A stretch of 36,367 bases of DNA from Candidatus Gastranaerophilales bacterium (GTDB taxonomy: Bacteria > Cyanobacteriota > Vampirovibrionia > Gastranaerophilales > Gastranaerophilaceae). The position numbers and the translations under genes were made by a program. Where the stretch lies: positions 1 to 36,367 of the forward strand of contig CAJOJP010000021.1 in NCBI GenBank assembly GCA_905234915.1, given 5' to 3'. Shown one piece after another: positions 3,117 to 25,989 of the stretch (its first letter is position 1; each line of letters opens with the position of its first letter). Below the pieces are notes generated by a model. It did not search any database, was not told where the DNA came from, and was given only the letters and a program-made list of their open reading frames with translations.

Positions 3117-4787
3117 TTATGGTTCTTTTCCAACATCACTACCATCAAGAGGTGGTTCAGGATATTCAGTCTGCAGTGTACTTGATTCTTTTTTTTGAAG
3201 CTGATCAAATTGAGCTCGGGTCATAAATCGTTCAGCCCCTTCTATATGACTGCCTTTTGTATGTGCTTGTGTCAACATAGTACTACCTGCTTGTGAAGTC
3301 CAACCGCCTGCATCAATTACGGCAACTTTTACCTGTTTCCCGTCTATTGTAACTGTTTGAATGTCTGCACCATTTATAGCTTCCATTAATTCTTCGCCGT
3401 TATGGGCGCTTAGAGTGTTTGTTTTATATTCGTTTTCCATACCAGAAGCGGAGCCGTTGCCTGAACCCGAGCCATTTGGTACTGTTGCGGGGTTTTGTGC
3501 GTCTGTTTGTGAAGTTGGCGGCGGTGTAGTACCTTCCGGCGGAGTTGTCGGTGTCGGTGTAGTCGGTGCAGGATTGCCTGTTGTCGGTGTAGAAGGTGTT
3601 GCATCCGACTGAGGCTGTGCACTAACTCCTGCGGCTTCAAGCTTTTCTGAAAGTATAACCGCTGTATCGTTTTTGATTTCTTTTTCAATTGCAGCAATTT
3701 CAGCAGGATCCTGCGGCTGTTTCGCTTTTGCTTTTGCCAGCTGTCTATTATGAATCTTGAGGTTTTTATCTGCATTTTGAGGTGTCTGCTCTAAATCCCA
3801 GGTTCCATCTTTATGTTTATACTTATTAGTTGCCTGATTATGATCTAATTGATAAAGTTTATTATTTGCATCGGCAGAATTGGCATATTTATCTATTTGT
3901 GCTTTTACGGCTGGATCATTGGGATCTTTACCTGCAGCTCTTGCCATATTTGTTAATTTTTGAGTAATTTCTTCTTTTGAACCGGTAATAAACTGACCTT
4001 GTTGGAGTCTTGCTGAATCAGTATCAGAAATGCCCAGTCTTGTCATATCATCAGGAGTCATCTTTGAAAAATCTTCGATACCTGTTAAACTTTGCATCGT
4101 TCCGATATTATTATAAGTTCCGTCGCCATTTTGTTCTAATGTTTGAGTTAAACGTCCTCTTTCAGCTTCATATTCTTCTTGCGGAAGAACATCAGCAGGT
4201 TCATTGTTAAAATCAGGGGTATCTGCGTTACCGTTTTGTGCTTGCTGAGCCTCCGCCTGTGCTGCTTCAAATGCCGCCTGTGCTTCAACTGCTTTTTCTT
4301 GAGCCTGCGCAAATGCTTGTTCTTTTCTGGCTACCTCAGCTTTTGCCGCTTCATATTTTTGTTTTGCTGCTGTATAATTAGCGTTATTAACTTCACCTGT
4401 TTTTTCATCTTTAAATTGATCTGGTTGCGGTTCACTCCCCAAACCTTCTAATGTTGTTCTTGCTGCATTCAATTCCGATTGGGCTGTACCGACAGCTGAT
4501 TGAGCTTGTTCATTAGCTGTATTTGCCGCATCCAATTTCGCCTGCAACTCCTGCGACACTCCGCTTTCGGTAGGAGAAGCTCCTGTATCGCGTAATATAG
4601 CTCTTTGACTTTCAACACTCCCAGGTCCAGAGGTGGAATTAGTTCCAAATATACTTGTAGGATTTCCTGTTTGTTGTGTACTGGTTAAATTTATCTGTTG
4701 AGGTCCGCCCTGTGTTTGTGCTGCCCTTCTTGCTGCGGCACGTTCAGTGCTTCCTTTACTATGAAACATATGACTCAGCCAACTCAT
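3117..4787 (-). CDS. large Ala/Gln/Thr/Pro-rich protein of unknown function
   Basis: I do not recognise this 556-aa protein. Residues 1-75 are polar and Thr/Ser/Gln-rich. Residues 80-185 form an Ala/Gln/Glu-rich region with strong coiled-coil character. Residues 200-345 are a mixed region, and a Pro/Thr-rich tract (about 390-430) acts as a linker. Residues 450-540 look like a small folded C-terminal domain (VTIDGKQVKVAVIDAGGW). There is no Cys, signal peptide or transmembrane segment. Its codons are richer in G+C than the neighbours, as expected from Ala, Gly and Gln. AAGGAG precedes the ATG. It is divergent from a gene of similar style (5012). A structural or secreted surface role is a guess. 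Confidence 0.75.
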   Translation of the reverse strand: MSWLSHMFHSKGSTERAAARRAAQTQGGPQQINLTSTQQTGNPTSIFGTNSTSGPGSVESQRAILRDTGASPTESGVSQELQAKLDAANTANEQAQSAVGTAQSELNAARTTLEGLGSEPQPDQFKDEKTGEVNNANYTAAKQKYEAAKAEVARKEQAFAQAQEKAVEAQAAFEAAQAEAQQAQNGNADTPDFNNEPADVLPQEEYEAERGRLTQTLEQNGDGTYNNIGTMQSLTGIEDFSKMTPDDMTRLGISDTDSARLQQGQFITGSKEEITQKLTNMARAAGKDPNDPAVKAQIDKYANSADANNKLYQLDHNQATNKYKHKDGTWDLEQTPQNADKNLKIHNRQLAKAKAKQPQDPAEIAAIEKEIKNDTAVILSEKLEAAGVSAQPQSDATPSTPTTGNPAPTTPTPTTPPEGTTPPPTSQTDAQNPATVPNGSGSGNGSASGMENEYKTNTLSAHNGEELMEAINGADIQTVTIDGKQVKVAVIDAGGWTSQAGSTMLTQAHTKGSHIEGAERFMTRAQFDQLQKKESSTLQTEYPEPPLDGSDVGKEP

Positions 4788-5011: not shown

Positions 5012-5661
5012 ATGGCAGATGGAGCAGTTGATTTAAGATTAACACGTGGTACAACACCGGTAAGCGGTGCACAACAAGGTCAGAACCCTCAAGGTACACA
5101 AAATGTCACGGGGGGGGGGGAGGCGATACCGGTATTTCCGGAAGTGATTTTGGCAAGGCTACTACTACACCTAGCAATGCAAACACTGTTCCTGACGCAC
5201 CTCAAAGTTTTAATCCGAAACTTCTTCAGGCTTTTGAAAATTACCTAAATGCAAGCAGGGATTCAGGTGCCGCAGCAGATGCTTCAGCTCAGGCAGATGG
5301 TCAAGTTACAGCTGCAAAGGATGATGTTTCTGAAAAAAAGAATGCCTTAGATGCATTAGTAGATGTTCTTGATAAATTAGGTGTCTTAGGCGGAGGTTTA
5401 GGAACAATTATAAAAGGACTAACCGGTTTATTCGGCGGCAGTGATGACGATGCTGAAAAAAAAGAAGAAGAAATAAAACAAGCGCAAGCAGATAAAGAAA
5501 GAGCGCAGCAGGATTTAACAGCTTCACAGCAAACTTTAGAAGCTGCTACTGCTGATCAAACAAAGGCAAAAGATAAAGAAAAAGACACAAAAAATGAAGA
5601 AAATGAAGCTGAAGAAAACTACAATACAGCTAAAAAAGAGGAAGAAAACGGACAATCATAA
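5012..5661 (+). CDS. low-complexity protein interrupted at a poly-G tract (candidate phase-variable gene)
   Basis: GGGAGAG precedes ATG 5012. The first 36 codons run in one frame to an 11-G tract (5110-5120). As written that frame then goes into nonsense and stops at 5248. The downstream coding continues in the -1 frame from GDTGISGSDFGK to TAA at 5659-5661. With 12 or 9 G the two parts join into one protein of about 216 (or 215) residues. The joined product has a Thr/Gly/Gln-rich head, a Gly-rich hydrophobic stretch (GVLGGGLGTIIKGLTGLFGG) and a Lys/Glu/Ala/Gln-rich coiled-coil tail. It has no signal peptide or Cys. It resembles its divergent neighbour in composition. A homopolymer sequencing error is the alternative to true phase variation. 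Confidence 0.7.
5110..5120 (+). repeat. poly-G tract of 11 bases
   Basis: An uninterrupted run of 11 G in a strongly A+T-rich genome, inside the coding part of the 5012 gene. One more or two fewer G restores the reading frame. Tracts of this length are typical sites of slipped-strand mispairing. Confidence 0.85.
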
Positions 5662-5691
5662 AAAAGAAGTTAAATTTTAAGTATTTTTTCT

Positions 5692-5727
5692 GTCATCGCG
5701 AGCAAACTAGCGTTTGCTCGCGATGAC
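5692..5727. repeat. perfect 16-bp REP-like palindrome, possible terminator
   Basis: GTCATCGCGAGCAAAC (5692-5707) and its exact complement (5712-5727) flank a 4-base loop. The sequence belongs to the GTCAT(T/C)GCGAG palindromic repeat family. It sits between the convergent ends of the 5012 gene and yidC, with T-runs on either side, so it may end transcription from both. Confidence 0.8.
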
Positions 5728-5769
5728 GCTATTTTAGATTTTTTGCAATTTTTTTAAATTTGCCAGAAC

Positions 5770-6867
5770 TTATTTCTTTTCGTTCTCTATTGTTCTTGTT
5801 TCAATGGGATTAATTGTTTTTGCATTTGATAAATCTTTTACCGGATGTTTTTGTGCTTCTTCCCTTTCAAGCTGTTTATTAATCATTACCGATTGAATAA
5901 TTTGTATGATATTACTTACAACCAGATACAACAGAACTCCTGCCGGAATAGGGGCAATTACAAACATGAATATAATCATCACGGGCATAATTGTTCCCAT
6001 CATTTTTTGCATTTGCTGCTGCATCGGGTCCTGGCTTTGATTTTTGTTCATTGATAACATTACTTTTTGCGATAAAAGCATTGTTGCAGCAAATAATAAT
6101 ATTAAAATAAATACATCGGCATTAAACTGTCCTTGAGGTATAACAGTAGGAACACTTGCCGCCATAATATCGCCTTTATGTTCAAAATGAACATTTTCTA
6201 CCTCTCTTGTTTTCATATTCTGAATTTCTACATCGGCAGAGGTCATTTTTGAAATTTCATCAAAATTAAGCCCCGTAAAATCATCGTCTTTAATTTTGAA
6301 ATCTACGTTTTTACCTGCTGTTATACTGCCTTGAACTTTAAGTCCGTTTTTATCAATTTTTACGTTATCAAGTTCCTTATCACCGAGTGAAACTTTAACT
6401 TTTTTAAATATTACAAACTTATCGCCTTCCGAAACACTAAAGGCTCCGTCATAAGAAAGACCGGCACTTCCTTTCAGTGTTTTATCAATTCTGTTAATAA
6501 ATAAAAAATTAGAATTTCCCGCCTCCTGCATAAACATAGGACTGATTAACGCTGCATAAAGCAATATAAATATCGGCATTTGTATTAATAAAGGCAGACA
6601 TCCCGACATTGGATTAAATTTATGCTCTTTATAAAACTCCATCATTTTTCTCTGGAGTGTCTGAGGATCATTTTTATAGCGTTCCTGCAATTTTTTCATT
6701 TCAGGCTGTAATACCTGCATTGAACGCATTGACCGCTGCTGAGAAACTCCCAAAGGCCAAAGGCATAATCTTACAATTACCGTTAACGCTATAATTGCCA
6801 GTCCGTAATTACCCGTAATATGATATAATCCTTTTAAAAGTTCGACTGTTAATGCTGTAAAGTCCAC
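5770..6867 (-). CDS. yidC: YidC/Oxa1-family membrane protein insertase
   Basis: The 365-aa protein has the YidC core without the large N-terminal P1 domain of Proteobacteria, as in Cyanobacteria. Membrane segments lie at about 20-40 (containing the groove Arg R33), 95-112, 249-268 and 295-330. The cytoplasmic hairpin with QPEMKKLQERYKNDPQ lies at 54-85, followed by NPMSGCLPLLIQMP. Between the second and third of these segments there is an insert of about 120 residues (127-248), predicted extracytoplasmic and rich in short beta-strand patterns with charged residues. The C-terminus is basic. It follows the glycosyltransferase gene by 18 bases, away from the usual rnpA-rpmH context. It inserts and folds membrane proteins with or without SecYEG. 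Confidence 0.92.
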   Translation of the reverse strand: MDFTALTVELLKGLYHITGNYGLAIIALTVIVRLCLWPLGVSQQRSMRSMQVLQPEMKKLQERYKNDPQTLQRKMMEFYKEHKFNPMSGCLPLLIQMPIFILLYAALISPMFMQEAGNSNFLFINRIDKTLKGSAGLSYDGAFSVSEGDKFVIFKKVKVSLGDKELDNVKIDKNGLKVQGSITAGKNVDFKIKDDDFTGLNFDEISKMTSADVEIQNMKTREVENVHFEHKGDIMAASVPTVIPQGQFNADVFILILLFAATMLLSQKVMLSMNKNQSQDPMQQQMQKMMGTIMPVMIIFMFVIAPIPAGVLLYLVVSNIIQIIQSVMINKQLEREEAQKHPVKDLSNAKTINPIETRTIENEKK

Positions 6868-25429: not shown

Positions 25430-25497
25430 TTTAAATTAAACGCGCAATTTTTCACTTTCTGATGTTTTTATATATGTACATAGGAGATATATGTAAA

Positions 25498-25989
25498 ATG
25501 GGTTTTCCGGACATAAATACAGGTTTACCATACAACAAAGATAAGTGGCTTACGCTGCAAGGCGGCATGAATGCCGGCGGTATTCAAGGCGGAGCTCGTG
25601 GAGTCCAAGGCGGCGGTTACGGCGGTTCTTATCATGGTGGCGGACAAACTATTACCGAGCAAATGGATGCAATTGATGCAAAACATGGCAAAGTCAACGG
25701 TGGCGACAGTTTCTTATCTTTAACAGGAATTAGAGCAACAGGCGGAGTAAATGGAGCTAATGCTGCAGAACGTACACGCGGTGCTTCAGGAACATCAGCT
25801 GAACCTAAAGTTGATTATGGTACAACAACTCAAACAGAAATTGATACACAGATGGAAGCTGAAACAGCTGCTCTAGGCAGGACACAGGCTGCAATGGGAT
25901 ACAACCCTGATGTATCAGGTGATACCGAAGGATTAAGTCAGGTTCAAGATGCAGCACATGCACAAAAATTGCACATAAAAGCAGCATAG
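25498..25989 (+). CDS. Gly/Gln-rich low-complexity protein
   Basis: 163 aa from ATG 25498, which follows AGGAG (25481-25486 area). An earlier in-frame ATG (25462) would add 12 residues but lacks a ribosome site. Residues 1-18 (MGFPDINTGLPYNKDKW) are followed by a Gly-rich stretch with GG repeats (25-60) and a polar Ala/Thr/Gln-rich half. It has no Cys, signal peptide or helix. It shares composition and promoter motif with the genes at 3117 and 5012. A terminator follows. Possibly a surface or structural protein exported by an unrecognised route. Confidence 0.7.
   Translation: MGFPDINTGLPYNKDKWLTLQGGMNAGGIQGGARGVQGGGYGGSYHGGGQTITEQMDAIDAKHGKVNGGDSFLSLTGIRATGGVNGANAAERTRGASGTSAEPKVDYGTTTQTEIDTQMEAETAALGRTQAAMGYNPDVSGDTEGLSQVQDAAHAQKLHIKAA

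Follow-up and report, generated by a model that had tools for sequence, protein, structure and literature searches.

A candidate poly-G phase-variable gene in a Gastranaerophilales genome and the recurrence of poly-G tracts across the Gastranaerophilaceae

The analyzed DNA (hereafter the window) is the whole 36,367-nucleotide stretch of contig CAJOJP010000021.1 from the Candidatus Gastranaerophilales bacterium assembly GCA_905234915.1, a 2.50 Mb genome that is 98% complete and divided into 146 contigs, of which the window is contig 21. It contains two half-frames that meet at a run of 11 G residues (Table 1). The upstream start codon is preceded by a GGGAG ribosome binding site at a distance of approximately 8 nt, and the frame opened by it (frame 0) is terminated at the assembled tract length by a TAA at 5246 after 78 codons. 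A second frame is free of stop codons from a TGA at 5029, across the tract, to the TAA at 5659-5661, and no ATG, GTG, or TTG was found in it between these two points. Having no start codon of their own, the 179 downstream codons need a tract length, or slippage, that joins them to the upstream start. Addition of one G or removal of two (the 9/12 series of lengths) restores a single frame of 216 aa, such that a change of one or two residues toggles between products of 216 and 78 aa as in contingency genes, and the G11 constitutes a homopolymeric G/C tract of at least 8 inside the reading frame. The gene at 5012-5661 is OFF as assembled. The original prediction of two half-frames joined at an 11-G run into one protein of about 216 aa with a good ribosome site, and of an OFF state as sequenced, was reproduced in full.

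Table 1. Positions of the tract gene, its neighbors, and selected further tracts of the host genome (window coordinates unless a contig is named).
Feature	Position	Strand	Remark
G11 homopolymer tract, proposed slipped-strand switch	5110-5120	+	codons 33-36
Upstream half-frame, 32 codons, ATG 5012	5012-5109	+	ribosome site and coding score
Downstream half-frame, 179 codons plus TAA	5122-5661	+	without a start codon of its own
78-aa out-of-frame product predicted for the OFF (G11) state	5012-5248	+	
Low-complexity protein of 556 aa, divergent neighbor	3117-4787	-	without relatives in 40 congeners
yidC/oxaA, convergent with the tract gene	5770-6867	-	
17-pair palindrome TGTCATCGCGAGCAAAC..., terminator-like	5691-5728	+	between the tract gene and yidC
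G10 inside one 628-aa frame, with the GT8 part on one side and the LicD part on the other	L207 3848-3857 (contig C13)		ON
GGDEF gene with a 10-residue tract at codon 30	L209 4993-5002 (contig C32)		OFF as assembled
G13, apparently intergenic	L006 4081-4093 (contig C134)		just 5' of an AAAAAAATG

Both half-frames carry the signature of coding DNA. Codon usage scoring trained on the other genes of the window gave +0.66 bits per codon for the upstream half in frame 0 and +0.73 bits per codon for the downstream half, the latter similar to intact genes, and all remaining frames of both halves scored negative. The probability of 179 stop-free codons arising in a wrong frame is approximately 1e-6, and no lesion besides the frameshift was detected in the downstream half. 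The GC content of the window is 32%, and apart from the G11 tract no run of G or C in it exceeds 5. Markov models of orders 1-4, applied to both strands, gave an expectation of 7e-4 to 2.5e-6 runs of at least 11 G per window; the original prediction had likewise called poly-G rare in such A+T-rich DNA.

The genomic surroundings of the tract gene differ from those in related genomes. The yidC gene was followed by queA in all 28 relatives with readable downstream DNA (28/28), whereas queA of the host lies on the separate contig C1 and yidC is followed instead by the tract gene. The usual place of queA is thus taken in the host by the tract gene and the divergent 556-aa gene, both of them without relatives, which suggests that the locus is species-specific and was placed there by rearrangement or insertion. 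A prophage origin of the locus found no support. The yidC contig of one genome of the same genus (G011; position 695 of contig C196) matches DVJT01000047.1 of Candidatus Avigastranaerophilus faecigallinarum, which assigns the host to that genus group of the Gastranaerophilales. Low-complexity Gly/Gln/Ser proteins are encoded at positions 540-1121, 3117-4787, and 25462-25989 of the window, none with a Sec signal recognized by eye and one with a CHAP domain; these proteins may perhaps be clients of an unrecognised export route.

Sequence comparisons identify the 216-aa product as an ORFan with no family match. Homologues of the downstream half were found neither in 97 relatives, nor in the contigs of 84,980 species (close relatives only), nor in IMG/VR or phage records, and no tract-length variants of the gene were found in IMG/VR. 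Searches of Pfam and PHROGs returned weak coiled-coil matches only, among them DUF4407 (PF14362), which was rejected at 17.5 bits versus a Pfam gathering score of 31.3 and with a match confined to the coiled-coil region. AlphaFold2, run on the downstream half as a single sequence, gave a model (mean pLDDT 77) in which about 30 disordered residues in a Gly/Thr stretch precede two long helices; a Gly-rich hydrophobic stretch lies close to the helix turn. The complete product is predicted to combine a disordered Gly-rich N-terminus with a helical hairpin. Foldseek searches with this model retrieved generic helical hairpins with colicin chains among the first matches and no match at E<=0.001; a colicin receptor-binding hairpin was rejected as the fold match was not significant (best E 0.012 with the single-sequence model), and the modeled resemblance to colicins in Gly-rich N-terminus and hairpin serves as a lead only. 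No Sec signal was seen by eye in the 216-aa product. A role in the envelope or after export is considered, with low confidence, likelier than an enzymatic one, and the protein might tentatively be placed at or outside the cell surface.

The tract of the window is accompanied by others in the host genome. Eight tracts of at least 9 G were observed versus 0.02-1.4 expected by extrapolation from the window composition, an excess over chance of the kind associated with contingency genes, and their lengths of 9 (one tract), 10 (five), 11 (one), and 13 (one) are piled at 10-11. In the GT8-LicD gene, a change in tract length would be predicted to remove the LicD part of the protein, and a DNA-pattern search of congeners located this tract in the host genome only. 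This gene recalls the Haemophilus lic1 locus, a phase-variable locus that is likewise of the LicD family; however, lic1 uses tetranucleotide repeats in place of poly-G, and the likeness noted is one of gene family. The GGDEF tract gene is possibly a phase-variable diguanylate cyclase. Another tract is situated at the end of an FkbM methyltransferase gene, and a further one lies in an OFF gene that, named by eye and without a Pfam match, probably encodes a sugar ATP-grasp protein. Three tracts are intergenic or in unclear frames (contigs C29, C66, and C134), and the G13 of contig C134 is possibly a transcriptional or leader tract.

A survey of relatives, whose genomes are assemblies from uncultured organisms labelled as MAGs, identified tracts of at least 9 G in 36 of 41 genomes of the genus and in 99 of 117 genomes of the family Gastranaerophilaceae, with a maximum of approximately 128 per genome. 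Very long G runs (e.g., in G013 contig C108 and G019 contig C60) were left out as they look like sequencing artefacts. Five close congeners were without any such tract, indicating that the trait comes and goes. The congener G025, assembled in about 20 contigs and 98% complete, has 58 tracts, and the 49 that were read measured 9 (29 tracts), 10 (16 tracts), or 11 residues (4 tracts). Thirty of these 49 lie in frames of at least 120 aa with a tract-dependent length, 17 of them ON and 13 OFF as assembled. Their products, assigned by eye, include large membrane glycosyltransferases, nucleotide-sugar epimerases, FkbM-type methyltransferases, and a prepilin. Two G025 paralogues carry a tract at the same codon with G9 (ON) in one and G10 (OFF) in the other; with one genome per species, the differences in tract length were seen across species and between paralogues.

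A tract is also carried by rfbG, a conserved gene whose motif identifies it as a CDP-glucose 4,6-dehydratase. An invariant GNVIGGGDW is encoded with mixed Gly codons in eight orthologues, whereas the genes of G025 (L255) and G026 (L264) have a G11 at this motif that is one G out of frame; the remaining protein sequence is preserved in the other frame, and both assemblies are OFF. This contrast in codon choice indicates that a conserved enzyme has been placed under a putative poly-G switch in two species and is the strongest single comparison available.

A separate observation concerns type IV prepilin-like genes in G032, also of the same genus, which has approximately 119 tracts. Among the 58 examined, 35 were followed by a prepilin motif within 400 nt, and genes with G9-G11 or C9-C10 in their first codons were located at L097-L125 (odd numbers) and L269-L308. 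In 28 clear cases the tract is in the first prepilin codons (M...RHGGGGR...FTLAEVLITLVVIGIIAAIT); 22 of these are OFF and 6 ON as assembled, and for some a start 3' of the tract is possible.

The gene at 5012-5661 is best explained, with good probability, as a translational phase-variable gene of the poly-G contingency type. Slipped-strand mispairing during replication would alter how many G residues the tract holds; those of the 9/12 series would yield the 216-aa protein (ON), whereas lengths such as 11 would shift the frame and end it after 78 codons (OFF). Switching would be random, reversible, and exerted at translation, and we infer that the tract length varies in the living population. 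The tract would then be one of a poly-G set, spread over the host genome and those of its relatives, that mostly controls surface glycan, pilin, and signalling genes, and its gene is very probably one of many that are switched randomly in this little-studied group. The ON/OFF switch of the original prediction agrees with the anatomy of the gene and is strongly supported by its genomic context, comprising the further tracts, their placement, the mixed states, and rfbG.

The alternative that survives best, although improbable, is an assembly or sequencing error in which the real tract has 9 or 12 G and the gene is intact and invariant. Homopolymers of 11 bases are error-prone in short-read assemblies, the G11 consensus can be off by one, and the host assembly is fragmented (146 contigs). 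A one-base error would nonetheless leave 10-12 G, within the range of tracts of at least 8 shown to switch in Campylobacter (PMC6321876); moreover, tracts of 9-11 recur in dozens of independent assemblies in both ON and OFF states, and an rfbG with G11 was found in two species. Less probable still is a pseudogene, i.e., a true and fixed frameshift in a gene being lost, which would agree with the lack of relatives among the genomes searched and with a gene that shows no conservation beyond its own species. Such decay is difficult to reconcile with a downstream half that is stop-free, scores like intact genes, and has suffered no second lesion, and with a frameshift that falls exactly at a hypermutable tract. 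Equally unlikely is transcriptional slippage or ribosomal frameshifting at G11, giving a constant mix of short and long products from unchanged DNA. In its favor, polymerase slippage is possible at long homopolymers and the downstream frame is well kept despite the OFF state in the DNA, but the ON and OFF lengths of other copies and the 9-13 spread would be left unexplained. None of the three was judged to fit the genus-wide pattern as well as slipped-strand switching.

The best-known examples of poly-G phase variation come from host-adapted Proteobacteria and Campylobacterota, and the Vampirovibrionia (“Melainabacteria”) are non-photosynthetic relatives of the Cyanobacteria in animal guts. 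That slipped-strand variation at poly-G is established in Campylobacter and Neisseria, as stated in the original prediction, is borne out by the literature (PMC6321876; PMC3786947). Campylobacter tract lengths peak at 9 (53%) and 10 (26%), and the tracts described here resemble the Campylobacter phasome in having 9-11 G inside reading frames of an A+T-rich genome, many per genome, in mostly surface-modifying genes with mixed ON/OFF states, and in sharing this length peak (PMC6321876). They differ in belonging to another phylum and in that length variation has been demonstrated in Campylobacter, whereas here it is proposed from assembled sequences. The Neisseria hmbR and hpuA genes encode poly-G phase-variable surface receptors with demonstrated switching and share with the window gene a frame switched by poly-G length inside the ORF, although the window protein, unlike these receptors, is without a known family (PMC3786947). 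A literature search of incomplete coverage returned no paper joining poly-G phase variation with the Vampirovibrionia; phase variation was mentioned together with Melainabacteria once, incidentally, and with Gastranaerophilales not at all. The type of switch is well known, while its occurrence at such a scale in the Vampirovibrionia is apparently unreported.

Taken over the family, it is rather likely that the Gastranaerophilaceae run one of the largest known sets of poly-G phase-variable genes of the Campylobacter type, including dozens of mostly OFF prepilins with first-codon tracts in at least one species, with the window gene as an outlying member. If confirmed, a large prepilin repertoire held mostly OFF via poly-G would be of greater note than the window gene. 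If the switching is real, tract lengths would be readable directly from existing metagenome reads, and if gut Vampirovibrionia use it at the scale seen, their surface glycans and pili would probably be diversified under pressure from hosts and phages.
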